Made by a program: the position numbers and the translations under genes. Below the pieces are notes generated by a model that saw only the letters and a program-made list of their open reading frames with translations, was not told where the DNA came from and made no database searches. 64,000 nt of DNA, taken from positions 16,562,032 through 16,626,031 of the forward strand of contig NC_080582.1 in the NCBI RefSeq assembly GCF_029962835.1, in the 5' to 3' direction. Shown here one piece after another: positions 16,687 through 64,000 of this stretch. Origin of the DNA: Magnolia sinica (Eukaryota; Streptophyta; Magnoliopsida; Magnoliales; Magnoliaceae). The stretch's first letter is position 1. Each line of letters opens with the position of its first letter.

Positions 16687-16695
16687 GTGGTGCAG

Positions 16696-18932: not shown

Positions 18933-21773
18933 ATGCTCTCATCATTTCCACCCTTACCAAACAAGGAATTCCATTTTGCAGAAAGTGATCGTGCGGAGGA
19001 GACGGCAGCTTCCAGGGATGGTGATGATCGACGGCTCAGACAAGGAGGAGAGGTTGTGAGTGCTTGCTCACGACGCATGAGGCAACAGATATGGGACTGT
19101 TTGAGAGATGACAATATTTCAGTGTTCTCAGTTTGGGGATGGCAGGGTGTGGGGAAGTCACGGATCATGAGACAGATGGTCTCAGAAATGGAGATATTCA
19201 GAGAATCTAGCCGTCTGTTTGATGTGATCATACGAGTAAGAGCACCAGGGAAAGAGAGTCTTGCTGAGAAGATGCAGGCGAGAATCAGAGGAGAATTGGA
19301 CCGTCTGACAAAAGAGTACAAAAGACCGAATGATTTGGATGTGTATTGGCAGACACAGCTTTTAAAGGGGATGGATGAAAAGGGGAGAAGGAATCGTTTA
19401 ATGGAGGTACAGATGGGAATGAAGGAGGCATTGGATATCCCAAAGTCCATGGACTTCTCCACAGCTGCTAAACAAATCTCGGCTAAGCTAAGCGGCCAGA
19501 GGTTCCTCCTCGTCTTAGAAGATGTTTGGGAAAGCATCAACTTGGAAGAGATGGGAGTTCCAGTCATGGCCCCTGCTTTCACCATCGACAGCAAAGTGGT
19601 GATTACAACTCGATCTCAAAAAGTTTGTAAGGAAATGAAAGCCCAAGTAAACATCAGGGTGGGGGAGTGGTCTAAAGAAGACGCCCGGGATTTTTTACAG
19701 GAAGAGGCAGCCGATGTTGCTGCCAGCATTGGTTTCTCAATAACCAGAGACATGGTCTTCAAATGCTTCTCTTACGTCGCCTTGCTCTGTCGAAATGGAG
19801 GCTCCATCGATGCAGATTCCTTGATAGAAGAGTATTGGAGGTCGGAGGGCATTTTAGATGGATCCTTCAATGAGGAGGAGAATAAAGAAGCTGCTTTCAA
19901 GAGAATGGGGAATATACTGCTCAAAGAGCTTGCAGAGAGATGCATGGTGCTATTGTCCCTGGTGTCATCAAACCTAAATTGGCTACACTCCTTTGTAAGT
20001 AGGTGGGATGAATATTATTGGGGAGACTTTTCAAAAGCTCAATCTATGGAAGGGGAATTTATGGATTGGCTACAAGAGCAATATACAATGGAGGGATCTT
20101 CAGGAGGACAATATCATGTGGATATGAATTCCCAGCTAATGGAAGTGATTGGTTCTCAGACGTTCCCAGTGAAGTACAACTTAGATAGGGAAGAATCATG
20201 CCAATGGATCTCATTATCCAATAATCAGGTAGAAACACTCCCATTCCGCTCTCCAAATTTCCCTCTTCTCTCGACATTGTTGCTCAACAATAATGATCGC
20301 TTGCAAGAAATCCCAGACGGTTTTTTCCAGAACATAACCAAACTCCGAGTCCTCGACCTTTCTTCCACAAGCATCACTTCCCTGCCCTCGTCCATGTCCT
20401 GCCTATGCGAATTACGGTTGTTGAAGCTTCAAAGCTGCTGCAAGCTAGAGGTTCTTCCTGCATTCTTAAAGGATATGCAGAAGCTTGAGATCCTCGATCT
20501 CCATCAAACTCCCTTGACGAAGATGGTGGAGGTATCCTTCCATAACATGCAAAGCCTCCGACGTCTCAACATCTCAGGTGCCTGCAACCTCAGCAGGCTC
20601 TCGCTCAAGGGTTGTCACTCTCTAGTGAAACTGGTCAGCCCAAATAAACATTCAAAACTTGAGGCACTTCATCTTTCAGGCACGAAAATGGAAGAGCTCC
20701 CACACGAAATTTTCAATCTGAATAGCTTGCGGTGCCTGGACCTGTTGGGAATGGAGCATCTCAAGACGGTTGACTGGAGAAAGATAAATCAGCTTCCAGA
20801 AAACTTGAATTGGGATCGATGTGGCTTGAACTTGCTGCATGAGCAGCTCCAAGACAGCAGCAGTCGTCACATCTCTGTCGGTGATGCAAGTGTTTTTGAG
20901 TCTTTGGACGAAAGCTCGGAACTGTGGAAATCCTGCTTTCAAAAATTCCATTTCTTGGTCTGTCCCTGCGAGGGAGGGCGCAAGGATAGATATCGTGATT
21001 TTAAAAGAAACCGATTTTTCTACCAGCGTATTTATACTCGATTTGAGCTGTCTTTGAGTTATGAAAGACAACTGGAGGTTTGCGGTGGTAAGAATTCCCT
21101 AGACGGTGTTAGAGGGGTTCTCTCAGTGACAGAATTCTTTCATTTGCATGGCAATGCGTTCATTAAGGCACTGTCCAATCTTGGCATGGAGATGGACAAC
21201 CTTAAAGAATGTTGGATTGAGAAATGCCATCAACTGGAGATTCTGTTCGTTGGAAGAATGGCAAACATTGATGCAGCGGTCTGTTTAGAAAATCTAAGGG
21301 TGTCCGATCTTGCCAAATTAAGAACAGTGTGCCGGTGGCAGTTGGGAAGAGGGAGCTTCGCATGCCTAAAGAATATATATTTGGAATGTTGCCCGAAGCT
21401 CGTGAACTTATTCTCTTCGAGCATTCAGTTACAGAATCTCAAATTACTTGAAATAAAATTTTGCTGTAGACTGGAGAAGGTCTTTGAAGAAGACCGCCTG
21501 GCAGGGCAGAATGCATTTCCACAGCTAGTTGATTTATGTCTTTGGGAGCTACGCAAACTGAAAAGCATTTGTGGTGGGCACTTGCCGATGCTGAAGAAGT
21601 TGAAGATTCGAGGATGCCCGCTGCTGGAGAAGCTTCCTCTCCATAACACAAATGCTTCTGCAGCAGAAGTCAAGATTGAAGGTGAGCTGAAATGGTGGGA
21701 AAGCATAAAATGGGAGGGTAGTGTCAAGCCACACAACATCCGTTTCAAAGAATGGTGTCCGTCAACCAAGTGA
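18933..21773 (+). CDS. NB-LRR protein, CNL At4g27190-like, lacking GLPL/ARC1 (gene 2)
   Basis: The open frame of 946 residues is the closest intact relative of gene 1. The P-loop GWQGVGKS is at 69-76, kinase-2 FLLVLEDVW at 191-199, RNBS-B SKVVITTRS at 220-228, CFSYVALLC at 278-286 and the winged-helix LIEEYWRSEGILDG at about 297-310. No GLPL block lies between. MNS (398-400) takes the MHD place, and an LRR tail runs to GCPLLEKLPL and WWESIKWEG. It keeps about 25 residues after the P-loop that gene 1 lacks. The start is doubtful: the ATG used by gene 1 and pseudogene 3 is ACG here (19002-19004). I use the upstream in-frame ATG at 18933, whose first 24 residues are translated 5' UTR in the other copies. 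It could instead use a non-AUG start, a later Met, or be silent. It begins the left arm of the large inverted repeat. Confidence 0.8.
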   Translation: MLSSFPPLPNKEFHFAESDRAEETAASRDGDDRRLRQGGEVVSACSRRMRQQIWDCLRDDNISVFSVWGWQGVGKSRIMRQMVSEMEIFRESSRLFDVIIRVRAPGKESLAEKMQARIRGELDRLTKEYKRPNDLDVYWQTQLLKGMDEKGRRNRLMEVQMGMKEALDIPKSMDFSTAAKQISAKLSGQRFLLVLEDVWESINLEEMGVPVMAPAFTIDSKVVITTRSQKVCKEMKAQVNIRVGEWSKEDARDFLQEEAADVAASIGFSITRDMVFKCFSYVALLCRNGGSIDADSLIEEYWRSEGILDGSFNEEENKEAAFKRMGNILLKELAERCMVLLSLVSSNLNWLHSFVSRWDEYYWGDFSKAQSMEGEFMDWLQEQYTMEGSSGGQYHVDMNSQLMEVIGSQTFPVKYNLDREESCQWISLSNNQVETLPFRSPNFPLLSTLLLNNNDRLQEIPDGFFQNITKLRVLDLSSTSITSLPSSMSCLCELRLLKLQSCCKLEVLPAFLKDMQKLEILDLHQTPLTKMVEVSFHNMQSLRRLNISGACNLSRLSLKGCHSLVKLVSPNKHSKLEALHLSGTKMEELPHEIFNLNSLRCLDLLGMEHLKTVDWRKINQLPENLNWDRCGLNLLHEQLQDSSSRHISVGDASVFESLDESSELWKSCFQKFHFLVCPCEGGRKDRYRDFKRNRFFYQRIYTRFELSLSYERQLEVCGGKNSLDGVRGVLSVTEFFHLHGNAFIKALSNLGMEMDNLKECWIEKCHQLEILFVGRMANIDAAVCLENLRVSDLAKLRTVCRWQLGRGSFACLKNIYLECCPKLVNLFSSSIQLQNLKLLEIKFCCRLEKVFEEDRLAGQNAFPQLVDLCLWELRKLKSICGGHLPMLKKLKIRGCPLLEKLPLHNTNASAAEVKIEGELKWWESIKWEGSVKPHNIRFKEWCPSTK

Positions 21774-25920: not shown

Positions 25921-25935
25921 AACCCAACCCGACTT

Positions 25936-28855: not shown

Positions 28856-29600
28856 AGTGCCACTATGATTTTTGTGTTAGATCCACACTGTCCATCGAAT
28901 CTTCTAGATAATTCTCAAGCATGAGTTCATAAATGAGGTACATCCAAAGCTCAAGTGGACCACACAACAGACAGAAGTGAAGATTGAATAAACTACCCTT
29001 GAAACCTTCCTAGGGTCAATGTCAAGGCTTATTTTCTATATAACATGTTCACAAGGTCTCACGGGGCTGGACAAAGGTAAAACAAAAATATCAATTTGAT
29101 TAAAGCCTTCTATGGCCTCAAGAAGTTTTGGATGGTAGGGTCAATTTCTACTGTTTCTTATGGTGTGGTCCACTTTAGCTTTGGCTTGCCCTGTTTTTCA
29201 GAATGATCTGAAAAAATGGATGAATGGTGTGGATATAAGAAATACATAAATTTCATGCATCGATAAATTCAGCTGCTAGCTAGAGAAAGAAAACTGCACC
29301 GGGACTTGATATGTGGAACCTCCGTGGGCTCCATCATGATGTATGTATTAGATCCACATTGTCCATCCATTTTCATACCATTTAAGGGTATGAGATGCAA
29401 AACAAGGCGGATCAAAGGCTCAAGCGAGCCACACTATAGTTGTAAATTAGTCTTTCAACTCCCACTGCTACCTGTGGTGTGGTCCACTTGAGCTTTGGAT
29501 GTGCCTACTTTTTAGGATTGTTTGGATCTAACACATAAATCACAATGGGCCAGCAAAGTTCCACACGGTAAAAATTGGATTGTGTAATAGGCAATCCATT
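28856..29600. mobile_element. two adjacent foldback MITE copies
   Basis: The first covers about 28856-29270 (GTGCCACTATGATTTTTGTG ... GAATGGTGTGGATATAAGAA). The second covers about 29300-29600 (GGGCTCCATCATGATGTATG ... TAACACATAAATCACAATGG). Phrases such as TATGGTGTGGTCCACTTTAG are shared with all others. They form the distal promoter region of pseudogene 3. Confidence 0.6.
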
Positions 29601-29786
29601 AGCGAGAGAGAAAATCCGGTTGAAGTCAGGTCGGGATGGATTGGCCTAACATGACTCGAGCCTAATTATAAACCTGCTTGAAAATTGATAGGGCCAAGCT
29701 TGCAGGCCATGCCTAGCCCATGCTCTCATTTCCACCCTTACGAAACAAGGAATTCCAATTTTGCAGAAAGGGATCGTCCAGAGGGG

Positions 29787-32700
29787 ATGGCAGCTTCCAG
29801 GGATGGTGATGATCGAAGGCTCAGACGAGGAGAGGTTGTAAGTGCTTGGTCACGATGCATGAGGCAACAGATATGCGACTACTTGAGAGATGACAAGATT
29901 TCAGTGTTCTCAGTTTGGGGATGGGAGGGAGTGGGGAAGACGAGGAACATGAGACAAGTGGTTGCAGCAGTGATGGAGGAATCCAGAGAATCTAGTCATC
30001 CGTTTGATGTGATCATAAGAGTAAGAGCACCGGGGTCGAGAGTCTTTCAGAGAAGATGCAACTGAGATTCAGAGGAGAATTGGACCATTAGCAAAAAGAG
30101 CAGGAAGGATCGTTTAATTTTGATGAGTATTGGCAAACGCCGATTTTAATGGAGTTGGATGAAAAGGGGAAAGGGAATCGTTTAATGCAGGTACAGATGG
30201 GAATCAAGGAAGCATTGAAGATCCCAAAGTCCATGCACTTCTCCGCAGCTGATAAATGAATCTCAGCTAAGCTACGCACCCAGAGGTTCCTCATCGTCTT
30301 GGAGCTAAGCTAAGCAACCAGAGGTTCCTCATCGTCTTGGAAGATGTTTGGGAAGGCATCAACTTGAAAAAGATGGGAGTTCCCGTCATGGCCCCTGCTA
30401 TCACCATCGGCAGCAAAGTCGTGATCACAACTCAATCCCCAGAAGTTTGAAAGGAAATGGAAGCCTAAGTAAACATCACGCTGGGGGAGTGGTCTAAAGA
30501 AGACACCTGGGATTTTTTACAGAAAGTGGCAGCTGATGTGATGGCCGGCATTGGTTTCTCAACAACCAGAGACATGGTCTTGAAATGCTTCTCTTAAGTG
30601 TCCTTTTTCTGTCGAAATGGACGCTCCATCGATGGAGATTCCTTGACAGAAGAGTATTGGATGTCGGAGCGATTTTTAGATGGATCTTTCAACGAGGAGA
30701 ATAATGAAGTGGCTTTCAAGAGACCAGGGAATATGCAGAGAAATGCATGGTGCTATTGTCCTTGGTGTCATCAAGACCAAATTACCTAGGCTCTTAATCC
30801 AATCGGTCCTACTCTCCCTTACTAGCCCGTTGTGCACCTGCAAAACAAAGAGACGCTAGGGGCGCCGGTTGTACCTGGGGACCCTCCAATGCCTAAGTCA
30901 GGGTAGGCTCATAATGGGCGTAGTTGGATTAGGGCAGTTGTACATACCTTTCTAATGAGTAGGGTGCCTATTTATAAACCCTTTAGGTCACTTACATGTT
31001 GTGGTCTCAGTGAGCAGTCCCTCCCGCATACGGCGGTGATCCTCCCTGAATATTTTCTATTCTAAGGTACTGGTCAGTATCTGAGGCCGAGGTCATTGGT
31101 CGAAGGGAATTTATGGATTGGCTACAAGAGCAATTTACAATAGAAGGATCTTCAGGAGGACAATGTCATGTGGATATGAATTCTCATGTGATGGAAGTGA
31201 TTGATTCTCAGATGTTCCAAGAGAAGTACAACTTTCATTGGAAAGAATCATGCCAATGGATCTCATTATCCAATAATCAGGTAGAAACACTCCCATTGTG
31301 CTCTCCAGATTGCCCGCTTCTCTCGACATTGTTACTCAACAATAATGATCACTTGCAAGAAATCCCAGATGATTTTTTCCAGGAACATGACCAGACTCCG
31401 AGTCCTTGACCTTTCTTCCACAAGCATCTCTTCCCTGCCCTCGTCCATGTCCTGCCTTTGCGAATTACGGTTGTTGAAGCTCCAGAGCTGCTGCAAGCTA
31501 GACGCTCTGCCTGCATTCTTAAAGGGTATGCAGAAACTCAAGATCCTCGATCTCCATCAAACTCCCCTGACAAAGATGGTTGAGGTTTCCTTCCACAACA
31601 TGCAAAGCCTCCGACGTCTCAACATCTCAGGTGCCTGCGACTTCAGCCAACTCTCGCTCAAGGGTTGTCGCTCTCCATTGACACTGGTCATCCCAGATAA
31701 ACTTTCAAAACATGAGGCACTAGATCTATCAGGCACGAAAATGGAAGAGCGCCTGCATGAAATTTTCAATCTAACTACCATGCGATGCCTGGACCTATTG
31801 CGAATGGAGCATCTCAAGAAGATCGACTAGAGAAAGATAGATCGACTTCTAGAAGAATTGAATTGGGATCGATGTGGCTTGAATTCGTTGCACGAATAGC
31901 TCCAAGACAGCAGTAGACATCGCATCTCAGTCAGTGATGCCGGCATTTTCGAGTCTTTGGACCAAAGCCCTGATCTGTGGGAATCCTGCTTTCTAAAATT
32001 TCATTTCTTGGTCTGTCCCTGCGAGGGAGGCCACAAGGATATATATGCTCATTTTAAAAGAAAGTGATTTATCTACCAGCGTATTTATACTCGATTTGAT
32101 CAGTCTATGAGTTATGAGAGATGCCTGGAGGTTTGCAGTGGTAAGAATTCCCTGGATGGTGTTAGAGGGGTTCTCTCGGTGACAGAATTCTTTCTTTTGT
32201 ATCGAAATGTGTTTGTTAATGCACTGTCCGATGTCAGCATGAAGATGGACAACCTTAAAGAATGATGGATCGAGAAATGCCATCAATTGGAGTATCTCAT
32301 AGTCGGAGGAACTGCAGATGTTGATGCGGCAGTCAGTTTAGAAAATCTAAGGGTGTCCAATCTTGCCAAATTAAGAACAGTGTGCCGGGTTGGAATAGGG
32401 AGCTTCGCATGCCAAAAGCATATACATTTATACATTTGGAATGTTGCCAGAAGCTCGTCAACTTCTTCTCTTCAAGCATTCAGTTACATAATCTCAAATT
32501 ACTTGCAATAAAATTCTGTTGTAGACCGGAAAAGGTCTTTGCAGAAGACAACGTGGTGGGGCAAAATGCATTTCCTTCCACAGCTAGTCAATTTACGTCT
32601 TTGGGAGTTACACAAATTGAAAAGAATTCACAGTGGGCATGTGCTGATGCTGAAGAAGTTGAAGATTCAAGGATGCCCAATGCTGGATAAGCTTCCTCTC

Positions 32701-32832
32701 CATAACACAAATGATTCTGCAGCAGATGTCGAGATCCAAGGTGAGTTGAGATGGTGGGAAAGCATAAAATGGGTGGGTAGCGTCAAGCCTTGCAACATCC
32801 ATTTCAAAGAATGGCGTCCATCAACTAAATGA
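29787..32832 (+). pseudogene. NB-LRR pseudogene 3 (left arm)
   Basis: This is the third full-length family member, related to gene 2. It starts with an ancestral ATG (ATGGCAGCTTCC) and keeps the P-loop GWEGVGKT, but several frameshifts and stops interrupt it: after the RVRAPGSR segment, at the TGA in the AAEKCMDFG-equivalent region (about 30256), at the TAA after CFS (about 30595), and at TAG codons about 31828 and 31897. A direct duplication of about 38 bp around kinase-2 (about 30265-30340) adds another break, and a retroelement piece (30786-31105) splits it before the LRR. The LRR half is still readable (LSSTSISSLPSSMSC, GCPMLDKLPL). It matches the mirror copy 51319-54327, so most damage predates the arms' separation. 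Confidence 0.85.
30786..31105. mobile_element. LTR-derived fragment inside pseudogene 3
   Basis: This foreign block, absent from genes 1 and 2 at the same place, contains GGCGCCGGTTGTACCTGGGG, ACCCTCCAATGCCTAAGTCA and GTATCTGAGGCCGAGGTC. The same phrases occur in the solo LTR at 45538-46195, so the two are related. The mirror copy is at about 53003-53331. Confidence 0.6.
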
Positions 32833-33566
32833 TTCTTCTATGCTTAAACTACCTCTGTTTACTTTGTTATTCTTCTCTTCTTGAACTATTGTAATTCTCT
32901 TTTATTTGTGTTACAGTGTCGCAGAAAGACGAGGGTGTTCCATTGGATTTCGGTGATTTAGTCTTAGTGGCTTTGAATTATGAATTTAGGAAGAATTTGG
33001 ATGTGTTTCTCTTTCGCATGTATTTCGTAAAAGGTAAACAAGTACCAGGTTTGTTTGGCAAATCATGCATGCAGCAGTAAGCAGGACTCAATTTTTCCTT
33101 TTATTTTCCTGATAGACTGGGTCCACCTGTCTTTATTATTTATGGTTTTTATTATGGGGCCTAGCTATTTTGTATGAATTTGTTGGGTTTTTCAGGTTTG
33201 ATTTATGTTCCGCTAATGTAGATGTAATTTTCTATTATATCAATGAAATTATAGATGACAGTGTCTCAACAATTAAAAAAAGAAGAAAAAAGAGGCACAA
33301 GCCAATGAACTCAACCCAACCCATGGATAAGGCTAAAACTTGGGCCAGGCTCATCCCAATCCCAACTGGTCCAACCCAATCGTTCGATGGTGGGGATCTT
33401 TAATTCTTTAAATCAATGCTCTTAATCATGTTTATCCAATCCAGAGAAACAAGCACTGTTGGATAAAAGTTTGGGTTGGGTTAGGTGAAAATGCATCGGC
33501 TCAGGTGAGGTAGGTCTGGAAATTGGGTCCCATTACATGGCCAATTTGCAATCTTAACCAGTGAGT
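32833..33566. other. 3' flank of pseudogene 3
   Basis: It aligns with the 3' flanks of gene 2 and, for its first 180 bp, gene 1. No gene is visible. Confidence 0.6.
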
Positions 33567-35350: not shown

Positions 35351-35381
<31 letters not shown>

Positions 35382-48777: not shown

Positions 48778-48808
<31 letters not shown>

Positions 48809-49159: not shown

Positions 49160-49942
49160 GTTTCAGAGAAATGGTTCCATTCCCAAGTAATGGGATAGAG
49201 TCCGGCCTTTCCCTTTCAATCCTCATTTTGGATGGCAGATGGTCACCATCTTTTCAGTGCACCTAAGATTGGCCCTTGGCCATTTATACGTTCGTTGTAG
49301 TGACAAATTTCTTTATCGGGAATTTCTTTTCTCCGGAATTTCTCAGGATATTGTTGGGAAAATCTCATAAAAAATAAAATTTTTATTATGAATAAATAAA
49401 TATTTTAGGATTTTAACAATGAACTAGTTAAGTTCAACCTTGTTGAGAAGGAAAATTGTTGAACTATCCTCTTGTATTGTTTTTCTTTAGAAAGAATGAA
49501 GTCAAAAAAATTTGTGGCAGCCCCACAGTTTGTGTATGACATTAGCATGTCAAACATTTGCAACCAAATATAATAATCGCATGGACCAAAAATCTTTCTT
49601 TTGATGTTTTTAAGTGGTGTATGTTATTTTGTTATGGTGCTTCATCATCCTCTCAGGTTGACCAAATGTTTGGTTCTACTCAACACCATGAGGTAGTACA
49701 TCTGTTGGACAGCTTGGATATTATAAAAATATGTAATGGACCCCATAATTTTCTACTTCACCAATTTCTATAAAAAAAACAAGTGCAATGTGGGCATTAT
49801 GGTAATTTCAGTGCTAAAAAACAGTCATTTCGGTAGGTAGGGGCATTATTTGGTAAATCCTAATTTGCGAGGAATTTTGTGGTAAAAATCCATAATTAAA
49901 ATGCGAGATGTCTGTCTCAAACAACTACCAAAAGTAGAAAAG
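49160..49942. other. flank between LINE and MITE, right arm
   Basis: Mirror of 34207-35004. Non-coding. Confidence 0.6.
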
Positions 49943-50586
49943 ACCAAGGGGTCACTTGGCACCATGGATTTGGGGGGATTTCAAATCTCCTAATATGTTT
50001 GGTACCATAAAGTGATCGGGGGTTTCAAATCAAGGGGATTCAAATCCCCTCAAAGAGGGGGTTTGAAATCCAAGGTGGAAGCTTGTATTACATCTAAAAT
50101 ACTTCCAAGAGTTGCATGTGTAACATGTGTGTCACTTGGCTATTAATCTATTGGGCACATGGCCCACTGATGATATCCCAAAACAATTAGATTATCAACT
50201 GCTTCACTATAATTACTTTAATAGGATAATCTGCTCCATCCAAACATTGTCCATTTAAATCAATGGTTAAAAATCATTGGTTAGTCACTCGGATGTGATC
50301 CTGTGCTTCGGGCAAAGTATATCTTTCAACGGGCTTATTACAACCATTGTGTCAAAACATTACATACGTACACTAATTAGAGATATTAAAGTTGATTTAG
50401 TAATTAAATTCAAACCCCTCTAAATATAGCATGCATGGCTACTTTGGATTACAGGGATTCTGAATCCAGGGTGCCAAACACAACGGGCGGATTTCAAATC
50501 CTGGGCGTTCCAAATCCAGGGGGTTCTGAATCCAGGGGTTCCAAATCCAATCTCCCAAACAGGCCATAAGGGCCTATTTGACTGAC
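49943..50586. mobile_element. MITE-like insertion, mirror copy
   Basis: Counterpart of 33567-34206, with the same ends (AAGGGGTCACTTGGCACCAT ... AAGGGCCTATTTGACTGAC) and a few substitutions. Confidence 0.65.
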
Positions 50587-51318
50587 TCACTGGTTAAGAT
50601 TGCAAATTGGCCATGTAATGGGACCCAATTTCCAGACCTACCTCAAGTTAGCCGATGCATTTTCACATAACCCAACCCAAACTTTTATCTAACAGTGCCT
50701 GTTTCTCTGGATTGGATAAACGCGATTAAGAGCATTGATTTAAAGAATTAAAGATCCCCACCATCGAACGATTAGGTTGGATTAGTTGGGATTGGGATGA
50801 GCCTGGCCCAAGTTTCAGCCTTATCCATGGGTTGGGTTGAGTTCATTGGCTTGTGCCTCTTTTTTCTTCTTTTTTTAATTGTTGAGACACTGTCATCTAT
50901 AATTTCATTGATATAATAGAAAATTACATCTACATTAGCGGAACATAAATCAAACCTGAAAAACCCAACAAATTCATACAAAATAGCTAGGCCCCATAAT
51001 AAAAACCATAAATAATAAAGACAGGTGGACCCAGTCTATCAGGAAAATAAAAGGAAAAATTGAGTCCTGCTTACTGCTGCATGCATGATTTGCCAAACAA
51101 ACCTGGTACTTGTTTACCTTTTACGAAATACATGCGAAAGAGAAACACATCCAAATTCTTCCTAAATTCATAATTCAAAGCCACTAAGACTAAATCACCT
51201 AAATCCAATGGAACACCCTCGTCTTTCTGCGACACTGTAACACAAATAAAAGAGAATTACAATAGTTCAAGAAGAGAAGAATAACAAAGTAAACAGAGGT
51301 AGTTTAAGCATAGAAGAA
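50587..51318. other. 3' flank of pseudogene 3', right arm
   Basis: Mirror of 32833-33566. Non-coding. Confidence 0.6.
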
Positions 51319-54300
51319 TCATTTAGTTGATGGACGCCATTCTTTGAAATGGATGTTGCAAGGCTTGACGCTACCCACCCATTTTATGCTTTCCCACCAT
51401 CTCAACTCACCTTGGATCTCGACATCTGCTGCAGAATCATTTGTGTTATGGAGAGGAAGCTTATCCAGCATTGGGCATCCTTGAATCTTCAACTTCTTCA
51501 GCATCAGCACATGCCCACTGTGAATTCTTTTCAATTTGTGTAACTCCCAAAGACGTAAATTGACTAGCTGTGGAAGGAAATGCATTTTGCCCCACCACGT
51601 TGTCTTCTGCAAAGACCTTTTCCGGTCTACAACAGAATTTTATTGCAAGTAATTTGAGATTCTATAACTGAATGCTCGAAGAAGTTGATGAGCTTCTGGC
51701 AACATTCCAAATGTATAAATGTATATGCTTTAGGCATGCGAAGCTCCCTATTCCAAACCCGGCACACTATTCTTAATTTGGCAAGATTGGACACCCTTAG
51801 ATTTTCTAAACTGACTGCCGCATCAACATCTGCAGTTCCTCTGACTATGAGATACTCCAATTGATGGCATTTCTCGATCCAGCATTCTTTAAGGTTGTCC
51901 ATCTTCATTTTGACATCGGACAATGCCTTAACAAACACATTTCGATACAAAAGAAAGAATTCTGTCACCGAGAGAACCCCTCTAACACCATCCAGGGAAT
52001 TCTTACCACCGCAAACCTCCAGGCATCTCTCATAACTCATAGACTGATCAAATCGAGTATAAATACGCTGGTAGATAAATCACTTTCTTTTAAAATGAGC
52101 ATATATATCCTTGTGGCCTCCCTCGCAGGGACAGACCAAGAAATGAAATTTTAGAAAGCAGGATTCCCACAGATCAGGGCTTTGGTCCAAAGACTTGAAA
52201 ATGATGGCATCATTGACTGAGATGCGATGTCTACTGCTGTCTTGGAGCTGTTCGTGCAGCAAATTCAAGCCACATCGATCCCAATTCAATTCTTCTGGAA
52301 GCCGATCTATCTTTCTCTAGTCGATCTTCTTGAGATGCTCCATTCGCAACAGGTCCAGGCATCGCATGGTAGTCAGATTGAAAATTTCGTGCGGGTGCTC
52401 TTCCATTTTCGTGCCTGATAGATCTAGTGCCTCATGTTTTGAAAGTTTATCTGGGATGACCAGTGTCAATAGAGAGCGACAACCCTTGAGCGAGAGTTGG
52501 CTGAAGTCGCAGGCACCTGAGATGTTGAGACGTCGGAGGCTTTGCATGTTGTGGAAGGATACCTCAACCATCTTTGTCGGGGGAGTTTGATGGAGATCGA
52601 GGATCTTGAGTTTCTGCATATCCTCTAAGAATGCAGGAAGAGCGTCTAGCTTGCAGCAGCTCCGGAGCTTCAACAACCGTAATTCGCAAAGGCAGGACAT
52701 GGACGAGGGCAGGGAAGAGATGCTTGTGGAAAAATCATCTGAGATTTCTTGCAAGTGATCATTATTGTTGAGTAACAATGTCGAGAGAAGAGGGCAATCT
52801 GGAGAGCAAAATGGGAGTGTTTCTACCTGATTATTGGATAATGAGATCCATTGGCATGATTCTTTCCTATGAAAGTTGTACTTCTCTAGGAACATCTGAG
52901 AATCAATCACTTCCATCACATGAGAATTCATATCCACATGACATTGTCCTCCTGAAGATCCTTCCATTGTAAATTGCTCTCGTAGCCAATCCATAAATTC
53001 CACTTCGACCAATGACCTTGGCCTTGGATATTGATCGCTACCTCAGAATAGAAAGGATCCAGATAGGATCCCCACCGTATGCAGGAGGGACTGCTCACTG
53101 AGACCACGACATGTAAGTGGCCCGTAAGGTTTATTGATAGACACCTTACTCAAGTCAAGAGAAAGGTATGCACAACTACTCTAATCCAACTACGCCCATT
53201 ATGTGCCTGGCCTGACTTAAGCATCGGAGGGTCCCCGGCCACAACCGGCGCCCCTAGTGTCTCTTTGTTTTGCAGGTGCGCTACCGGCTAACAAGAGGAA
53301 GGGTAGGATCGATTGGATTAAGAGCCTAGGTAATTTGGTCTTGATGACACCAAGGACAATAGCACCATGCATTTCTCTGCATATTCCCTGGTCTCTTGAA
53401 AGCCGCTTCATTATTCTCCTCGTTGAAAGATCCATCTAAAAACCACTCCTACCTCCAATACTCTTCTGTCAAGGAATCTCCATCGATGGAGCGTCCATTT
53501 CGACAGAAAAAGGACACTTAAGAGAAGCATTTCAAGACCATGTCTCTGGTTGTTGAGAAACCAATGCCGGCCATCACATCAGCTGCCACTTTCTGTAAAA
53601 AATCCCAGGTGTCTTCTTTAGACCACTCCCCCAGCGTGATGTTTACTTAGGCTTCCATTTCCTTTCAAACTTCTGGGGATTGAGTTGTGATCACGACTTT
53701 GCTGCCGATGGTGATAGCAGGGGCCATGACGGGAACTCCCATCTTTTTCAAGTTGATGCCTTCCCAAACATCTTCCAAGACGATGAGGAACCTCTGGTTG
53801 CTTAGCTTAGCTCCAAGACGATGAGGAACCTCTGGCTGCGTAGCTTAGCTGAGATTCGTTTATCAGCTGCGGAGAAGTGCATGGACTTTGGGATCTTCAA
53901 TGCTTCCTTGATTCCCATCTGTACCTGCATTAAACGATTCCCTTTCCCCTTTTCATCCAACTCCATAAAATCAGCGTTTGCAAATACTCATTAAAATTAA
54001 ACGATCCTTCCTGCTCTTTTTGCTAATGGTCCGATTCTCCTCTGAATCTCAGTTGCATCTTCTCTGAAAGACTCTCGACCCCCGGTGCTCTTACTCTTAT
54101 GATCACATCAAACGGATGACTAGATTCTCTGGATTCCTCCATCACTGCTGCAACCACCTGTCTCATGTTCCTCGTCTCACTCCCTCCCATCCCCAAACTG
54201 AGAACACTGAAATCTTGTCATCTTTCAAGTAGTCCCATATCTGTTGCCTCATGCATCGTGACCAAGCACTTACAACCTCTCCTCCTCGTCTGAGCCGTCG

Positions 54301-54327
54301 ATCATCACCATCCCTGGAAGCTGCCAT
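51319..54327 (-). pseudogene. NB-LRR pseudogene 3' (right arm)
   Basis: This is the mirror copy of pseudogene 3. It shares the kinase-2 duplication (about 53775-53860), the inserted retroelement piece and most frame breaks. Private changes include a 4-bp loss inside the P-loop, so that GWEGV is followed by a shifted frame where the left copy reads GVGKT, and loss of about 36 bp in the LRR (QEIS-DDF-STSISSLP at about 52730). One TAG of the left copy is not shared: the C-terminal stretch from SYERCLEVCGG is open over 137 residues. The N-terminal ATG (54325-54327, reverse) is retained. It is not functional in either arm. Confidence 0.85.
53003..53331. mobile_element. LTR-derived fragment inside pseudogene 3'
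   Basis: Mirror of 30786-31105, with GACTTAAGCATCGGAGGGTC and GGCGCCCCTAG in reverse sense. Confidence 0.6.
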
Positions 54328-54519
54328 CGCCTCCGGACGATCACTGTCTGCAAAATTGGAATTCCTTGTTTCGTAAGGGTGGAAATGAGAGCATGGGCTA
54401 GGCATGGCCTGCAAGCTTGGCCCTATCAATTTTCAAGCAGGTTTATAATCAGGCTCGAGTCATGTTAGACCAATCCATCCTGACTTGACTTCATCCGAAT
54501 TTTCTCTCTCGCTAATGGA

Positions 54520-55275
54520 TTGCCTATTACACAATCCAATTTTGACCGTGTGGAACTTTGCTGGCCCATTGTGATTTATGTGTTAGATCCAAACAATCCT
54601 AAAAAGTAGGCACATCCAAAGCTCAAGTAGACCACACCACAGGTAGCAGTGGGAGTTAAAAGACTAATTTACAACTATAGTGTGGCCCATTTGAGCTTTG
54701 GATTTGTCTCGCTTTTGGCCTCGTGTCTTACAAGGTATGGAAAAATGGATGGACGATGTGAATCTAATACATACATTATGATGGGGGCCATGGAAGTTCC
54801 ATATGTCAACACTCCGGGTTTTCTTCTCTCTAGCTAGCAGCTGAATTTATCGATGCATGAAATTTATGTATTTCTTATATCCACACCATTCATCCATTTT
54901 TTCAGATCATTCTGAAAAACAGGGCAAGCCAACACTCAAGTGGACCACACCACAAGAAATAGTAGGAATTGATGCTACCGTTGAAAACTTCCTGTGGCCA
55001 CAGAAGGCTCTGATCAAGCTGATATTTGTGTTTTAACTTCATCCAGGTATGGATGACCTTATGAACAGGGTAGATGAGAAGTAAGCATCATGGTTGGCAC
55101 TAGGAAGGTTTCAAGGGAAGTTTGTTCAATCCTCACTTCTTTCTATGGTGTGGTCCACTTGCACCTCATGTTTGGGTTCATGTTCTAAATTATCTGTAAA
55201 TATTGATGCAGTGTGAATTTAACACAAAAAATCATAGTGGCACTTGGAGAAGATTCACAATTAAAACTTGCATTG
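54520..55275. mobile_element. two foldback MITE copies, right arm
   Basis: Mirror of 28856-29600: TTGTGATTTATGTGTTAGAT, ACATTATGATGGGGGCCATG, then TTTCAGATCATTCTGAAAAA and GGTGTGGTCCACTTGCACCT. Confidence 0.6.
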
Positions 55276-55948
55276 TGTAGCAGGCAATCTATCCTGGAGA
55301 GAAATTCTGGGTATTTTGTTACTGGAGTCACGAGAAATGCCGCGTTCCAATGAAAAGAAATTATGAAAATAATACTCCACATTAAACAGTACAGGAGAAA
55401 CATTGAATGGTTAGGATCTTACAATCTAGAAGACTGCAGGGGATCCCCCATCAATAGTGGTGCCCATCAGACCCAACAATTTGGTTAATGCAAGTGTATA
55501 GGATCATGTGCATCAACTATGTATATGTTGATGCTCAGGACCCCTGCTGTAGGGACTATGTATATGTTGATGCTCAGGACCCCTGCTGTAGGGCTATCCC
55601 ACTTTGATACTTATAGTTTTGTTAGGTTTCTGTATGAGTAACTAATAATATGCTCCTATGAGATTGACTAATATCATCTATTCATCATTGAATTTCTTAA
55701 TTTATCTTGCTCTCTAGATGATCATTTCAGCCAAATAGTGGTCTTGGGAGCATCTTTATGTGTTTCTGGGAATTTTTTTAAACCATTTTGTCATATTTAG
55801 CAATAAAGTTCTCATTTGACAAAAAAAGACAAGAAAATACTCAATGGGACTGGATTACTGATGATACCATATGAATATGACAGTTTTCATCTCTAAGCAC
55901 ACTCCAATGCCATCAAAATTCAATTTTCAAACTCCTACCAAAGGAGGG
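55276..55948. other. spacer with a right-arm-only tandem duplication
   Basis: Non-coding mirror of 28196-28855. At 55517-55594 a 39-bp unit (CTATGTATATGTTGATGCTC plus AGGACCCCTGCTGTAGGG) is present twice; the left arm has it once. Confidence 0.7.
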
Positions 55949-56722
55949 TGATGTGGGGGAGGACGTGATGGGGTCAATCACCATCTTCCTCGAGGATAAC
56001 TACTTTGAATCTACGGAGCTCCTCTGGATTCCTGACAGAGTTTCCTTGAATCCACAAGGGATAAAGTAGAAATAAATTCTAATAAATTCGAAAAGAAATT
56101 GATTGATGATAAAAAAATAATAATAATAATAATAATAATAATAGTGAATTCTAATAAAAGAAATAATTTCTTTTCGAATAATTTCTAATAAATTTGAAAA
56201 GAAATTACAATCCTTTAAATAGTGAACTCGAACCTAAGATGAAGTTTTAGAGTCAAAACTCCAACTCAAACTCCCAAAAAACATGACTTACTATAAGTAG
56301 TAAAATTATTATTTATAACGGTGATGATTCCTATTAGACTTCATGGTTTTTGGCCAAAAATAGTAAGTGTCCAATTTAGCCTAACCACATTATTCTCCTA
56401 ATTTTTCTAAGCCCTTTTCATGTTGGGCACGACTCCTAAAACTCAAAGGATCAAAAGTTTTGATCGAACTAAAACTTACTATAAAAATAAAATAAATTGG
56501 ACTTTTGACTGTGGATTTGAAATCTCGCAAAGTGTGGGCAACCCAGCATAATAGGGTTGGTTGGCTAAAGTAGCTTATCTTATCCTAAAATATATATGAT
56601 ATGTCGAAAAACTCATCCCGGTTTGTGAGATACGATTGTTTTAAGGTTCTGACGGTCCTGCTCACTTCTGCCTTCGATTAGGCCTTATCTGGTCCATCTT
56701 GGCCATGAAAGTGTCCGCGTTA
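55949..56722. mobile_element. solo LTR-like copy, right arm
   Basis: Mirror of 27419-28195, including the (ATA)n tract at about 56115-56142. Confidence 0.6.
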
Positions 56723-56952
56723 GAGAAGGTCCCATGCGGTGATTCACCTAAAAACTGGAGATGAAAGGGACCAAATGATTGTACTTTAATTCTTTCCAGT
56801 AATGCCTGGGAGGGTACTGCTCCCTATATGCAGTAATTCCACTCCTTGCAGATTTTCCAACAAAACACTAGAGAGAACGAATCAAGAGTACTTTCCTCTT
56901 TCCTATAAAGGACTGTTTCTGCAATTACTTGAGACTGCTCCAACCTTCTCCC

Positions 56953-57141
56953 TCATAGTCCATGCAATTCCAAAGTGATTGGAAAAAAAACAGTGCAAAA
57001 ACAAGCCACTGAACAATGGAGGAATAGGTGAACTGATTCCTCTCCTTCATTGCACCTGTTTGGGAAGCTAACACCTCTTTTCTTTGGTTGGAGCTTTGCT
57101 AAGTGCACACGTGTGTGCAATAGAGCCCATGTACATGCCAC
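56953..57141 (-). mobile_element. short LINE fragment, mirror copy
   Basis: The minus strand reads RVHLAKLQPKKRGVSFPN, CNEGEESVHLFLHCSVA. Counterpart of 27000-27185. Confidence 0.5.
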
Positions 57142-58203
57142 TCGTGTGCCAGCATGTCATGATAGGTTCAAGATCCAATCCATCCATCAGAAAGGAACCA
57201 CTAGATTGAGGCCCTATCCTGATAATCAGGTTGATCCACTAGTCAGGTGGGTCACAGTCTGCAAGACAAATGAGTTACTCCAAAAAAATGGATAAAGTTT
57301 TCTAACCCGTCCACCTGTTTCTAGTATTGGGGCCCACTTGATGAGTGGACCAGATTTATTTTTGGGAGAACATGTAGAAGGTCGGACCAATCTGATGGAT
57401 GGATTGGATCTCGCACCTATGTGCCATGCTGTCAGTCATCATCCCATGGAAGGAGCGAGCAGAGGCCCGCTTCCTTGTCTGACAAATTCCTCCTACAAGG
57501 GGGAGACCAAACTACCACATCCGGATCATGAAGAAACATTGAGCAAGGGAGAGCTCCCCATCTGGGGCAAGACTTGCTAACCTCGGAAACTCCTCCTGGA
57601 GGGACCTCTCTCCGATCCACAGGTCTTTCCAGAACTGATTTGCTGCCTGTCACCGCATGAGAATCTGACCCTCTCCTTAAACTTGTCCACCACTCTACAG
57701 ACTGCCTTACACAGCCCAGAAGTTCTATATAAAGATGTCCTTTACCCACCAGCCCCTTTCCTGGAATCTTCCCCAACTTCTGGGAGAGTGACCTGCTTTA
57801 GTTTCCCTAACAGCTGGTGAATTCCTCAGCCTTTGTCTTTAAGGTTCCTTGTGAATGTCAAGTTTCATTCCAGTCTACCATCAACTGACACTTTTTTTCT
57901 GCAAGGTGATTTTGAATAAACTTGGGAAGTTGGCCCCCAGTGACAACCCATCCATACTTCTTCACATTCCTGTTTCTTCTTATTTCTTTTTTCCCTTTCC
58001 AACACCCTAGTTCAAGTCGTGTTGGATCTGGTTGTCAAGGTCCTCAGTTTGGGTTCGTATTGGAAAAGCCAGCCTGATTTGATATCAGGTTGGATTCGGG
58101 TTGAGCAAATTCAGGTTGGATTAGGATGTGTTGGGAATAATTACGTCTATTTGGGTTGGGTGGGGTCTGGTCAGGTTGGGTCCAGTTGGATCAAGTATGG
58201 TGT
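57142..58203. other. non-coding DNA, right arm
   Basis: Mirror of 25936-26999: dispersed repeat DNA followed by a GGTTGGGTTGGG-rich stretch (about 58090-58200). No gene is recognised. Confidence 0.5.
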
Positions 58204-58218
58204 AAGTCGGGTAGGGTT

Positions 58219-58715
58219 GTGTTGGGTTTCTATCCGTCGCTTCGATTTGACGGAGGGAATGGCGATGATTACAGTGATATTGGAGCCAACAACGCTGGCA
58301 TTCAGCAATGGGAAGAGGAGATGCAGGAGTTTGTTCTGGAAGGTTCGGGCAGAGATAAGGAGGCAGGTGAAAGCGCGGTCGAGGAGAAGGTTCAGCTTCA
58401 AATACGACCCTTTCAGCTATGCATTGAATTTCGCTGATGCTGGGTCTGGATTCCTCTGTTGAATTAGATAATAGAGATTGAAAATGGTAGAAATAGGGTA
58501 AATGGGTTTTGTCTTGGGTGGGTTCTGTTTTTGCTTCTTGTATATGGAGTTTTTTCTCTTCTTTTCAGGAACTGAGTGTAGGTGAGGTAGCTTTTGTACT
58601 GGGATTTCTATCTCGATTCTCCTGGGTCTCGATTTTATTTTTATTTTTTTTTCGTTTTTTAATCTTTTCTTTTCTTAATATCAGTAATGGGTTATGTCTA
58701 TATAAAAAAAAAAAA
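58219..58715 (+). mobile_element. processed retrocopy, mirror copy
   Basis: The same 497-bp intron-free copy. The A run ends at 58715. Flanks are AAGTCGGGTAGGGTT (58204-58218) and AAGTCGGGTTGGGTT (58714-58728), one mismatch, where the left arm's two copies are identical. Confidence 0.75.
58259..58462 (+). CDS. small conserved plant protein, retrocopy (67 aa), mirror copy
   Basis: The frame starts MAMITVILEPTTLAF and carries LFWKVRAEIRRQVKARS and KYDPFSYALNF. It differs from the left copy by S-to-T near residue 5, N-to-S in the CRSLFW stretch and D-to-A at FADAGSG. The last change hits the conserved NFDD motif, so this copy may be relaxing. It is open throughout. An upstream in-frame extension reaches 58019 but is repeat-derived, so I chose the ATG at 58259. 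Confidence 0.6.
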   Translation: MAMITVILEPTTLAFSNGKRRCRSLFWKVRAEIRRQVKARSRRRFSFKYDPFSYALNFADAGSGFLC

Positions 58716-58937
58716 GTCGGGTTGGGTTGGGCTGCGAGTTGGGTCCTCTTGATGTCAGCTTGGGCTCAGTTTGACCCCCAACCCGGCCCAACCTGATCGA
58801 GTTGCACTCCTGATCCTGACACCCTTTTTAGCCATGCATCTTGTCCAACGTTGTGCTTGTGTTGTTGCTGTTTTAGGAATATATTCGTACAGTCAACTCT
58901 TCCAACCATCTGCTGACATTAATTACTTATGTACCAG

Positions 58938-59405
58938 TGATCAATGCGACTGTGCAACTTCAGAAGGAACTGTCTGCTCTGCAATCTGAATTGGATCGGA
59001 TCCAATTCTTACTGAAAATTGCTGATCCGACAAGAGAAGCTGCTCGGAGGAGGGATTCAAAAGCCCAGACATCAAAATCTAACCAGCCAGATATTCCTAT
59101 TTCCAACGTCACAAAAAAGGCTTTTAGTGGAGCAAAAGAAAAGCTCTACGCTAGCAAAGCCTGCAAATGGTTCCTCCCATAAAGATAAAAGTCTTACCTT
59201 AGAAACAAGTAAACCTCCAGAAGGTGATAAAGATGTTAGTGACGGCATAGAAAGCAAAGTGGCCACATACACGGTCACAAAGCCTATATGGCTTGGTGCT
59301 ACAGAGGACATGTAAGTGAAAGAGAAGCAACATGTACATGATGAAGCGCCACAAAAAATGTATGAATCTGACGATTTTGTTGACATTTGGGAAAGTGGCA
59401 TTTGA
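58938..59405 (+). pseudogene. kanadaptin-like gene fragment, mirror copy
   Basis: Counterpart of 24733-25200. The exon begins after TATGTACCAG and reads LQKELSALQSELDRIQFLL, ADPTREAARRRD, then after a +1-type frame change TYTVTKPIWLGATEDM, a TAA, and YESDDFVD before a TGA at about 59403. GTAAGT at the TAA could be an unused donor site. Upstream, 58850-58936 looks like the end of an intron. It is not a functional gene. Confidence 0.5.
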
Positions 59406-62400
59406 TACTATGGACTGACAACAACAAGAAAAGATACTTTGATTTCTAACCATCATTCATTCATTCCACAATAAATATAGGTCAACAGTTAAGAAGTAGA
59501 AAAAAAAAAATTAGCTCCATGATTTAATGTTGAAGAGAGTATATACTGTTTAATCTTTTATCATGAACAAAATAAAGTAATTTACCTTTTACTAAATGAT
59601 TCTTAAAATGCCCCCAGCAATTTAAAAGCATAAAATGAATGCCAAGTGAAGCTTAAAATAGAAGAGAATAAGTATAATTTGAATTGTAAATTGTAAGATA
59701 TAAATTATAGAATCGTAGGATTCATATAAAGAGGGATTCAAGGTGAGATTCAAATAGTTTTGCTTAAGATTAAACTCAAATCCTAAATTGCAAATAGTAG
59801 GATTTTGATGACTATGCGCTTGTTTAATATATGTGACCAATCACATTGAATTCATGCAGAACAATTGGGCGATGAGCGAACCTCATTGAATGACCGTTAT
59901 GGTTACTGATGCATAATTTTATCGTGGCCATTGCTCATTCCAAACTGATCAAAAGATTTCAATGAATTGCTCAGAGTCACATTCAAATGCATGTTGGATG
60001 CACTGGTTGCAGATGTAGTGAAGTGGCTAACCATTTTGAACCCTTGCAATGATCCTGAGCATCTAAAGGGTACCGTACATTGTAGAGAACAGCTGGTTGA
60101 AGTTGTAAGCTTGTGAAAACCGTTATCGCTACTCATGGAAGATAAAAAGTGGAGGATTTCATGGTCTATATGCTTCCTTTTGGACCTCTCTATAAACAGC
60201 AGCTATGAAAATGGAAGATTGTAAATTCAGATGTTATGCATCGGTTGAACCTTTGTATCCATTCTGTGGAATCAGTACAAAATCAATCTGAAATTGAGGG
60301 AAACGATTCTAACCACATTTGTTTTCATCTTTCAACAATGCCATTTTACAGTTTTTGCATGTGGACTGGAGCATCCGGAGTTAACGGATTTGATCTTAGG
60401 TTATTATGCACAATTGAAGTCTGAATGCAAGTGATTAGTGTATTGTCATTTCAAAGCGGCTTTCTAGTGTGTTTTCATTCGAGGAGGCCGAGTTCCGTGT
60501 TCAGAAAAAGTTCATAGATGTAGGGTTCATGTTTGATCTTTCCAAGCCATTGATCTGTAGGCCCCCATCGTGGATGGACGATTGCCCCAAAATCTCCCAA
60601 ATCAGAAGATCCTAGCCATCAAATCTTTGGCCTTTCCTCCAGTGAGTGTGGTTTGTTGGTTCATTTCTTTTTAACAACAGGAGGTTAGAGTTGACCAATT
60701 GGGAGGATATACTGGGAATGGTCCATCCATGATGGGGGACGTTAGATCAATGGCTTGGATAGATTAGCCATCGGCCCCACACTTACCAACCAGGTTCGGA
60801 AACCGGTAGGGAGCTTGGCCTCTTTTCATTCATTCTAATGTGGTGTAAACAATAATACGATAGGGATTTGATTCTTTAGTGCAGATACTGAGATTGAAAG
60901 CTCTAGCTACTGGTATGGATGCATCTGGTAATTATTACTGTCTTGTGCATTCGGATTCCAGAGGAATGGTTCCTTCCACATAATGGGATGAAAGTAAGTC
61001 CTACCTGTTTCCATTGCAATCCTCAAATTGGATGGCAGACGGTCACCATCTTTTCGGTGCATCTAAGATTGGCCCTTGGCCATTTATAGGTCTTTGTAGT
61101 GACAAATCTCATTATCGGGAATTTCTTCTCTCTAGAATTTCTCAGGATATTGATGGGAAAATCTGGCTAAAATTGAAATTTCTCTTATAAATTAATAAAT
61201 ATTTTAGGATTTTAATAATGACTAATTAGGTACGTCCTTTTTGAGAAGGAAAAGTACCGAAGTACCCTATTTATTGTTTTTCTTTGGAAAGTAATGAAGT
61301 CAGAAAAAAAAAAAAAGTGGCCGCCCCACCTAGTTTGTGTATAACATTAGCATGCCAAACGTATTCAACCAAACATAATAATCACAAGGACCAAAAATAT
61401 TTTTTTATTGAATCACTAGTGGGCTGTGATTATATTTTGATGTTTTTAAGTGGTGTATATTATTTTTTATGGTGTGCCTCATCCTCCTTTTAGATTGACG
61501 AAATTTTTGGTACTTCTCAACACTATAGGAGATTACATCTATTGGACGGCTTGGATATCATAAAAATATGTAATGGGCCCCAAGAATTTCTACTTTACCA
61601 GTTTCTAAAGAAACAAGTGCATGGTTGGCATTGTGGTAATTTCAGTGCTCTATTTGTGTGGAATTTTGTGGTAAAAATCCCTAAATAAAACGAGAGATGT
61701 CAACATCAAACGATTGCCAAAAGTAGAAAAGACTCGCCGGTTAAGACTGCAAATCGGATATGTGATGGGACCCAATTTTCAGGCTTACCTAAACTCAGCG
61801 TACAGATTTTCTTATGACCCAACCCCAACTTTTATCCAACAGTGCCTATTTCTCTGGATTTGATAAACATGATTAAGAGAATGAAATAAAGAATTAAGGA
61901 TCCTCATCATGGAACAATTGAGTGGACCAGTCGGGATTGGGATGATCCTGGCCCAAGTTTCAGCCTTATCCATGGTTGGCTAAGGTCATAAGCATATGCC
62001 TCTCTCTCTCTCTCTCTCATATAATAGAAAATTACATCTAAATTAGGGAACATAACTGAAACCTGAAAAACCCAACCAATTCATGCAAAGCAGAAAGGCC
62101 CCATAACAAAAATCATCTAACACCTCTGCGAGGAAAATAAAAGAAAAAATTAAATAAATTAAGTGTCCTTACTGCTGCAAGCATGATTTACAAAACAAAT
62201 CCAGTACTTGTTTAACTTTCCGAAATTCATGCTAAAGAGTAACACATCCAATTTGTTCATGAAATTCATAATTCGAAGCCACTACGACTAAGTCACCTAA
62301 GTCCTATAGAACACCCTCTTTCTACCACAGCATCGCACAAATAAAAGAGAATTACAATAGTTCAATAAGAGAATAATAACATAATAAACAGATCCTAGTT

Positions 62401-62414
62401 GAAGCAGAAAAGAA
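59406..62414. other. non-coding right-arm DNA between the kanadaptin fragment and gene 2'
   Basis: Mirror of 21774-24732. It includes a CT microsatellite at about 62001-62019 and AT-rich DNA at 59500-59720. The frame 60236-60424 is conserved between arms but shows no family signature. No gene is recognised. Confidence 0.5.
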
Positions 62415-64000
62415 TCACTTGGTTGACGGACACCATTCTTTGAAACGGATGTTGTGTGGCTTGACACTACCTTCCCATTTTATGCTTTCCCACCATTTCA
62501 GCTCACCTTCAATCTTGACTTCTGCTGCAGAAGCATTTGTGTTATGGAGAGGAAGCTTCTCCAGCAGCGGGCATCCTCGAATCTTCAACTTCTTCAGCAT
62601 CGGCAAGTGCCCACCGCAAATGCTTTTCAGTTTGCGTAGCTCCCAAAGTCGTAAATCGACTAGCTTTGGAAATGCATTTTGTCCCACCACGCTGTCTTCT
62701 TCAAAGACCTTCTCCAGTCTACAACAGAATTTTATTTCTAGTAATTTGAGATTCTGTAACTGAATGCTCGAAGAGAAGAAGTTGATGAGCTTCGGGCAAC
62801 AGTCCAAATATATATTCTTTAGGCATGCGAAGCTCCCACTTCCCAATTGCCACTGGCACACTGTTCTTAATTTGGCAAGATCGGACACCCTTAGATTTTC
62901 TAAACAGACTGCTGCATCAACGTCTGCCACACCGATGTTTACATTTCGTCCGACAATCAGATACTCCAATTGATGGCATTTCTCAATCCAGCATTCTTTA
63001 AGGTTGTCCATCTTCATGCCGAGATCGGACAGTGCCTTAACAAACGCATTGCCATACAAATGAAAGAATTCTATCACCGAGATAACTCCTCTAATACCAT
63101 CCAGGGAATTCTCACCGCTGCAAACCTCCAACCATCTGTCATAGCTCAAAGACGGCTCAAATCGAGCATAAATACGGTGGTAGAGAAATCGGTTTCCTTT
63201 AAAACGACCATATCTATCCTTGCGCCCTCCCTTGCAGGTACAGACTACGAAATGGAATTTTAGAAAGCAGGATTTCCACAGCTTCGATCTTCGGTCCAAA
63301 GACTTGAAAACACTGGCATCACTGACTGAGATGCGACGTATGCTTCTGTCCTGTAGCTGTTCATGCAGTAAGTCCAATCCACATCGATCCCAATTCAAAT
63401 TTTCTGGAAGCTGATCTATCTTTCTCCAATCAACCGTCTTGAGATGCTCCATTCCCAACAGGTCCAGGCACCGCATGGTTGTCAGATTGAAAATTTCGTG
63501 CGGGAGCTCCTCCAATTTCGTGCTTGAAAGATCAAGTGCCTCAAGTTTTGAAAGTTTATCTAGGCTGACCAGTCTCACTAGAGATCGACAACCCTTGAGC
63601 GAGAGCCGGCTGAGGTTGCAGGCACCTGAGATGTTGAGACATCGGAGGCTTTGCATGTTGTGGAAGGATACCTCCACCATCTTCGTCAAGGGAGTTTGAT
63701 GGAGATCGAGGATCTCGAGCTTCTGCATATCCTTTAAGAATGAAGGAAGAGCCTCTAGCTTGCAGCAGCTTTGAAGCTTCAACAACCGTAATTCACATAG
63801 GCAGGACATGGACGAGGGCAGGGAAGTGATGCTTGTGAAAGAAATGTCAAGGACTCGGAGTTTGGTCATGTTCTGGAAAAAACCATCTGCGATTTCTTGC
63901 AAATGATCATTGTTTTTTAGCAACAATGTTGAGAGAAGAGGGCAATTTGGAGAGCGGAATGGGAGTGTTTCTACCTGATTATTGGATAATAAGATCCATT
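62415..64000 (-). CDS. NB-LRR gene 2' (right arm), LRR part only, cut by the window edge
   Basis: The open frame runs from the stop at 62415 to the window edge, over 500 residues of LRR. It ends with the same last 70 or so residues as gene 2 (GCPLLEKLPLHNTNASAAEV, WWESIKWEG). The middle differs markedly: QLEYLIVG resembles pseudogene 3, while SKLWKSCFL and CKGGRKDRYGRFK resemble gene 1. Relative to gene 2 it also has a few extra residues (VGRNVNIGVADVDAAV). The NB part lies beyond the window, so whether the gene is intact is unknown. It has no in-window stop. Confidence 0.8.
   Translation of the reverse strand, partial: WILLSNNQVETLPFRSPNCPLLSTLLLKNNDHLQEIADGFFQNMTKLRVLDISFTSITSLPSSMSCLCELRLLKLQSCCKLEALPSFLKDMQKLEILDLHQTPLTKMVEVSFHNMQSLRCLNISGACNLSRLSLKGCRSLVRLVSLDKLSKLEALDLSSTKLEELPHEIFNLTTMRCLDLLGMEHLKTVDWRKIDQLPENLNWDRCGLDLLHEQLQDRSIRRISVSDASVFKSLDRRSKLWKSCFLKFHFVVCTCKGGRKDRYGRFKGNRFLYHRIYARFEPSLSYDRWLEVCSGENSLDGIRGVISVIEFFHLYGNAFVKALSDLGMKMDNLKECWIEKCHQLEYLIVGRNVNIGVADVDAAVCLENLRVSDLAKLRTVCQWQLGSGSFACLKNIYLDCCPKLINFFSSSIQLQNLKLLEIKFCCRLEKVFEEDSVVGQNAFPKLVDLRLWELRKLKSICGGHLPMLKKLKIRGCPLLEKLPLHNTNASAAEVKIEGELKWWESIKWEGSVKPHNIRFKEWCPSTK

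Follow-up and report, generated by a model that had tools for sequence, protein, structure and literature searches.

The two arms of a large mirror repeat in the window (the whole stretch of 64,000 nucleotides that was analysed) are very probably two haplotypes of one NLR cluster, whose contigs were scaffolded end to end as a heterotype false duplication; this is our reading of the sequence itself. The mirror repeat does exist in the sequence, but it was most likely produced by the assembly rather than by biology. An earlier note on this DNA had left two readings open, a true duplication and a join of haplotypes. The haplotype join fits better and the true palindrome less so, because the gap lies on one scaffold, small indels and the precise presence or absence of a transposon separate the arms, their divergence is uneven, and no junction between them is assembled. 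The repeat and the gap are laid out as follows:

20203-39410, + strand: arm A (left) of the mirror repeat, in the contig that precedes the gap, identified by aligning it with reverse-complemented 46240-64000 in BLAST and MAFFT
44862-44961, no strand: 100-N gap, the sole N run in the window
46240-64000, - strand: right arm B of the mirror repeat, ending at the window end, found by BLAST and MAFFT

With BLAST, the two arms fall into a main mirror block (A 20203-36572 against B 64000-47575, 94.4% over 16,559 columns) and, past an insertion present only in A, a second mirror block (A 38051-39410 against B 47583-46240, 93.5% over 1,375 columns). Hits of fewer than 60 columns were excluded from this list; when the window was compared with itself, minus-strand hits below 100 columns and plus-strand hits below 150 columns were excluded. 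The layout from a separate repeat search of the window agrees with that from BLAST. Global alignment with MAFFT gave 17,572 sites with 688 mismatches (3.9%, sites gapped in either arm excluded) and 56 indel runs, and a second MAFFT setting gave identical counts. The longest identical tracts between the arms are 713, 461 and 426 bp. In 20 controls, where a dinucleotide-resampled A was compared with the real B, the longest exact mirror match was 13-16 bp compared with the observed 713 bp, and so a mirror repeat by chance is excluded. In the same orientation, the longest exact match between A and B is 23 bp. The claim that 20.2-39.4 kb recurs in mirror order at 46.2-64 kb is thus borne out by both the aligned sites and the 713-bp match, and the 100-N placeholder that had been reported between the arms was found at 44862-44961. 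The outer edge of the repeat coincides with the window end, where position 64000 pairs with 20203. Since the window end cuts arm B, the mirror repeat may be longer than the window shows. Rfam at gathering scores and ARAGORN each gave 0 matches in the window and therefore provide no synteny anchor.

On either side, mirror homology ends before the gap is reached, at 39410 in A and 46240 in B, leaving 5,451 bp unmatched in A and 1,278 bp in B. Three features describe this central region:

38051-39410, - strand: LINE fragment common to both arms, with zf-RVT (PF13966, E 6e-12) in the ORF 38638-39129
39411-44861, no strand: arm-A tail, from the end of homology to the gap; it begins with TG and starts TGTTCACTCCCC
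44962-46239, + strand: arm-B tail, from the gap to the end of homology

The two tails do not match each other. The only link between A and B is the N run, the assembled sequence having no junction base, and no breakpoint of an inverted duplication, inner or outer, was recognisable within the 64-kb window. Retroelements had been reported near the gap on both sides. This holds for the shared part of A, where zf-RVT, the sole retroelement match to Pfam, lies just before the loss of homology. For the tails themselves, the labels rest on motifs: the arm-A tail is presumably made of nested LTR-retroelement fragments, and in the arm-B tail we take about 45315-45540, which is Pfam-negative, to be a LINE-like RT carboxy-terminal stretch running in the same direction as the shared LINE. 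Among 54 ORFs of at least 50 aa at 39300-46300, the eight put to Pfam lie within or reach into the unmatched tails (three of them for the A tail), and none gave a match above the cut-offs, which leaves both tail labels, LINE and LTR, unconfirmed. The LTR primer-binding motif TGGTATCAGAGC and its complement were absent; a form shortened to 8 bases is present at 28305, and the complement of that form at three places (2205, 41460 and 55862). If the LINE label of the B tail is right, the B tail would be the older continuation and A would have been interrupted by an insertion. Under the same condition, the loss of homology at 39410/46240 would therefore not be a duplication breakpoint.

These observations bear directly on a real inverted duplication, in which one chromosome would carry both arms tail-to-tail around a repeat spacer, with later mutation, transposon insertion and exchange with other copies. 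We regard this as unlikely. The mirror order is complete over the 17,572 aligned sites, and the scaffold builder placed both contigs here on evidence outside this analysis. Real palindromes tend to carry an assembly gap at the centre, being hard to assemble, so that a gap at this spot is natural for them, and NLR clusters duplicate often. On the other hand, the arms have no assembled junction, the inner and outer breakpoints are not visible, and the loss of homology can be read as an insertion in A, partly from motifs.

Five NLR copies are visible in the window:

10371-13106, + strand: NLR copy A1, a 912-aa open frame with NB-ARC and LRR, not part of the mirror repeat within the limits of the window
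18912-21770, + strand: NLR copy A2, a 953-aa open frame that extends into arm A, from 20203 on, with its LRR part
29700-33240, + strand: NLR copy A3, a broken pseudogene in arm A
50911-54404, - strand: NLR copy B3, broken, the mirror partner of A3 in arm B
61974-64000, - strand: NLR copy B2, the mirror partner of A2, with a 527-aa LRR frame at 62418-63998, cut by the window end

The NB-ARC domain (PF00931) was found in A1 (E 3.9e-20) and A2 (E 2.8e-21), together with LRR families that include an RPS2-type LRR. The NB-ARC match is partial, covering profile positions 2-169 in A1 and 4-172 in A2 out of 248 and starting at frame residues 25 and 56, respectively; the ARC part of both genes looks shortened. 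No CC or TIR domain was matched at E 0.001 in the same frame as the NB-ARC of A1 or A2. The best solved relative of A2 by sequence is the NB-ARC protein 9h2l (phmmer E 2.3e-29). All the NLR copies read towards the gap, with the open frames of A1 and A2 on the + strand and that of B2 on the - strand. The arrangement is thus tail-to-tail, and not head-to-head as the earlier note had it.

The two mirrored gene pairs were compared at the codon level, with codons containing gaps or stops excluded. For the broken pair, a 38-bp tandem duplication is common to A3 (30265-30341) and B3 (53774-53850), and 9 stop codons are shared out of 12 in A3 and 11 in B3, as counted in ungapped codons on the A2 frame. 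Their divergence is nearly neutral (dN 0.021 and dS 0.028 over 897 codons of the whole gene). Shared breaks with near-neutral differences would be expected for alleles of one pseudogene, and would also be possible in a real duplication. For the open pair A2/B2, we obtained dS 0.175 and dN 0.064 over 518 LRR codons (20205-21770, the remainder of B2 lying beyond the window). Over the same stretch, the paralogues A1 and A2 gave dS 0.188 and dN 0.093. The silent-site divergence of the open pair in its LRR is about six times that of the neighbouring pseudogene pair, which was measured over the whole gene.

Apart from substitutions, the clearest difference between the arms is one element that is present in A and absent in B:

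36573-38050, no strand: hAT-like element of 1478 bp, in arm A only, with ends TAGGGGTGCAC/GTGCACCCCTA, its first T overlapping the flank, and CTGACAGA on either side

A hAT element is defined by an 8-bp target site duplication and short terminal inverted repeats. Here the 8-bp target copies CTGACAGA flank the element in A and the ends are of the TAGGGGTGCAC type, in agreement with this definition. Arm B near 47575-47584 has a single CTGACAGAT and no element, which is a clean empty site. Stop-to-stop frames of at least 150 aa were not found within 36573-38050. A 32-bp tandem array of 3.1 copies, containing GGGTTAGGG, lies inside the element at 36942-37041. Among the 56 indel runs between the arms, 46 are under 10 bp, many of them in homopolymers or short tandem units. 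The other ten are of 10 bp or more; six of these measure 30-40 bp and one is the hAT-like insertion. The statement that the arms differ the way alleles do, with one hAT present or absent, small indels and 1-3% substitutions, was thus correct for the hAT and the indels, and its substitution rate is true of the background only. None of these kinds of sequence difference is peculiar to alleles: a real duplication could show each of them between its arms, and the shared broken state of A3 and B3 as well.

The substitutions are distributed unevenly. A two-state rate model (HMM, with rates of 1.6% and 15.7%) fits better than a one-rate model, the gain in lnL being 247. From its segmentation, which also yielded many short high-rate segments, four tracts were chosen by eye:

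20203-21542, + strand: hyper-divergent LRR stretch of A2/B2, 125/1,340 mismatches (9.3%), merging several low- and high-rate segments
28877-29183, no strand: hyper-divergent tract, 68/293 mismatches (23%)
29284-29431, no strand: hyper-divergent tract, 44/146 mismatches (30%)
30804-31092, no strand: hyper-divergent tract, 48/289 mismatches (17%), within an insertion of A3/B3 that is not in A1/A2

Near the gap, B 45600-45716 is related to this A3/B3 insertion (30838-30951), with 69% identity to the A version and 74% to the B version. With the four tracts set aside, the arms differ at 403 of 15,504 sites (2.6%). The background is still uneven, with a variance/mean ratio of 4.2 per 250 bp (62 windows, the four tracts removed), a value reached by 0 of 10,000 Poisson simulations. 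For example, there are 2 mismatches in 740 sites at 35327-36066 and 32 in 1,219 at 33637-34864 (Fisher p 4e-5, for a pair chosen post hoc). CpG decay was ruled out as an explanation for the divergent tracts, because in the worst of them non-CpG mismatches and transversions increase as well. Local inversion of a foldback element was also rejected as the origin of the 23%, 30% and 17% tracts, where the mirror versus same-strand scores are 223/49, 107/15 and 324/17, respectively.

This uneven divergence speaks against a simple duplication of a single date, which predicts even divergence barring selection or conversion; here the background varies and two rates fit far better than one. The uneven background may also stem from uneven constraint, mutation or conversion. 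A palindrome with arm-to-arm gene conversion shares with this locus the two long inverted arms around a central spacer. It differs in that here no junction is assembled, the divergence is 3.9% and uneven, and the arms show no sign of homogenisation, being 2.6% apart even outside the tracts. A literature search on inverted or palindromic NLR clusters with gene conversion gave no match, which says nothing of print at large.

We return to the haplotype join. In a heterozygous plant, two alleles of one NLR cluster would have been assembled as separate contigs. Both contigs stop in a repeat-rich stretch slightly past the shared LINE fragment, presumably at the same place, and a scaffolder that paired these equivalent contig ends across a 100-N gap would have produced the mirror image. 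According to Rhie et al. 2021 (PMC8081667), separate contigs are common where haplotypes are highly diverged, and a scaffolder may bring such diverged haplotype contigs onto one scaffold, often separated by a gap. Two marks of heterotype false duplication are found here, namely near-identical copies on one scaffold (17,572 sites with 688 mismatches) and a gap between them. The small indels and the presence or absence of a transposon are further points of likeness to the class as described by the Vertebrate Genomes Project. The differences from that description are that our copies are mirror-oriented, and that the class is defined by read depth and k-mers while the present case is known from its sequence alone. 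Ko et al. 2022 (PMC9516828) give the share of false duplications on the same scaffold as only 7 to 24% in earlier assemblies, whereas for the VGP zebra finch it amounts to 22.2 of 24.1 Mbp; judging from these figures, it depends on the assembly whether same-scaffold placement is common. Both PMC9516828 and PMC8081667 are vertebrate studies, and the passages of them that concern us do not mention mirror orientation.

If the arms are alleles, the five NLR copies in the window do not stand for five loci: three of them (A1-A3) belong to one haplotype, and A2 and A3 are each seen again as their other allele. The NLR copies in view would then be too many by two (B2 and B3), and claims of a palindrome or an expansion made from this assembly would be false. 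Since the arms are most likely two parental versions of one locus, the NLR gene count here is probably overstated. Until reads decide, the locus is best counted as three visible NLR copies belonging to one haplotype, two of which are also present as their other allele. In that case a useful residue is left, an NLR haplotype pair in which the silent divergence of the open gene in its LRR is near the level of paralogues, beside a pseudogene pair and, for the most part, intergenic DNA differing by about 2-3%.

The divergent LRR stretch of A2/B2 was also compared with the other NLR copies. Past about 21,610, the difference between A2 and B2 falls to about 1%, whereas that between A1 and A2 remains 10% or more. 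Among the columns where all five copies are present with exactly two letters, A2 sides with B2 in 50. In 19 others A1 sides with A2 and in 11 with B2, and as judged by eye these 19 and 11 columns seem clustered. This pattern looks like exchange between NLR copies, as in RPP8 of Arabidopsis, where intergenic gene conversion among NLR copies is described, one locus being 2 Mb distant (PMC6771003). The likeness to RPP8 as reported there lies in an A2/B2 dS close to that of the paralogues A1/A2, a drop to about 1% downstream and some columns shared with A1. The differences are that we have one sequence with two versions per locus, no population sample or identified donor, and an exchange that is putative.

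Such exchange leads to a second alternative, which we consider still more doubtful than the plain inverted duplication: a young tail-to-tail NLR duplication, its arms unhomogenised, that has been rewritten in short tracts by third-party LRR or MITE-like copies. If this were true, the open gene would diversify while the pseudogene and the intergenic DNA stay about 2% apart. When the placement of the divergent tracts was compared with that of sequence having a third window copy, the observed difference was reached in 1,440 of 5,000 circular shifts, and so no concentration is supported; moreover, the gene body of A3/B3 is only 1.7-2.2% divergent despite its paralogues in the window. That divergent tracts favour sequence with a third window copy is therefore still an idea. 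The least probable alternative is a real second copy from elsewhere in the same haplotype (a segmental duplication, unlinked or further along) that the scaffolder misplaced or misoriented: the join across the gap is unverified and NLR paralogues can lie apart, as reported at RPP8 (PMC6771003), but the segment has kept its order throughout, in the pseudogene and the intergenic DNA too, at 2.6% outside the four tracts, which is simpler as alleles, and only chance would have brought the equivalent contig ends face to face.

Two of the hyper-divergent tracts, 28877-29183 and 29284-29431, are separated by 100 identical bp and flanked by divergence of about 1-2%. The region 28877-29431 belongs to a dispersed MITE-like family with further copies in the window. 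These show matches of about 65-84%, in stretches reaching about 400 columns, and higher values in some short pieces. At 28.9-29.4 kb, A and B differ from each other about as much as the members of this family do. No close donor for these tracts was found in the window, the best long match being 73% over 407 columns and shorter ones reaching up to 84% over 96 columns. Many matches to the MITE-like family also lie before and between the NLR copies of the left side, at 4900-10100 and 14700-18940.
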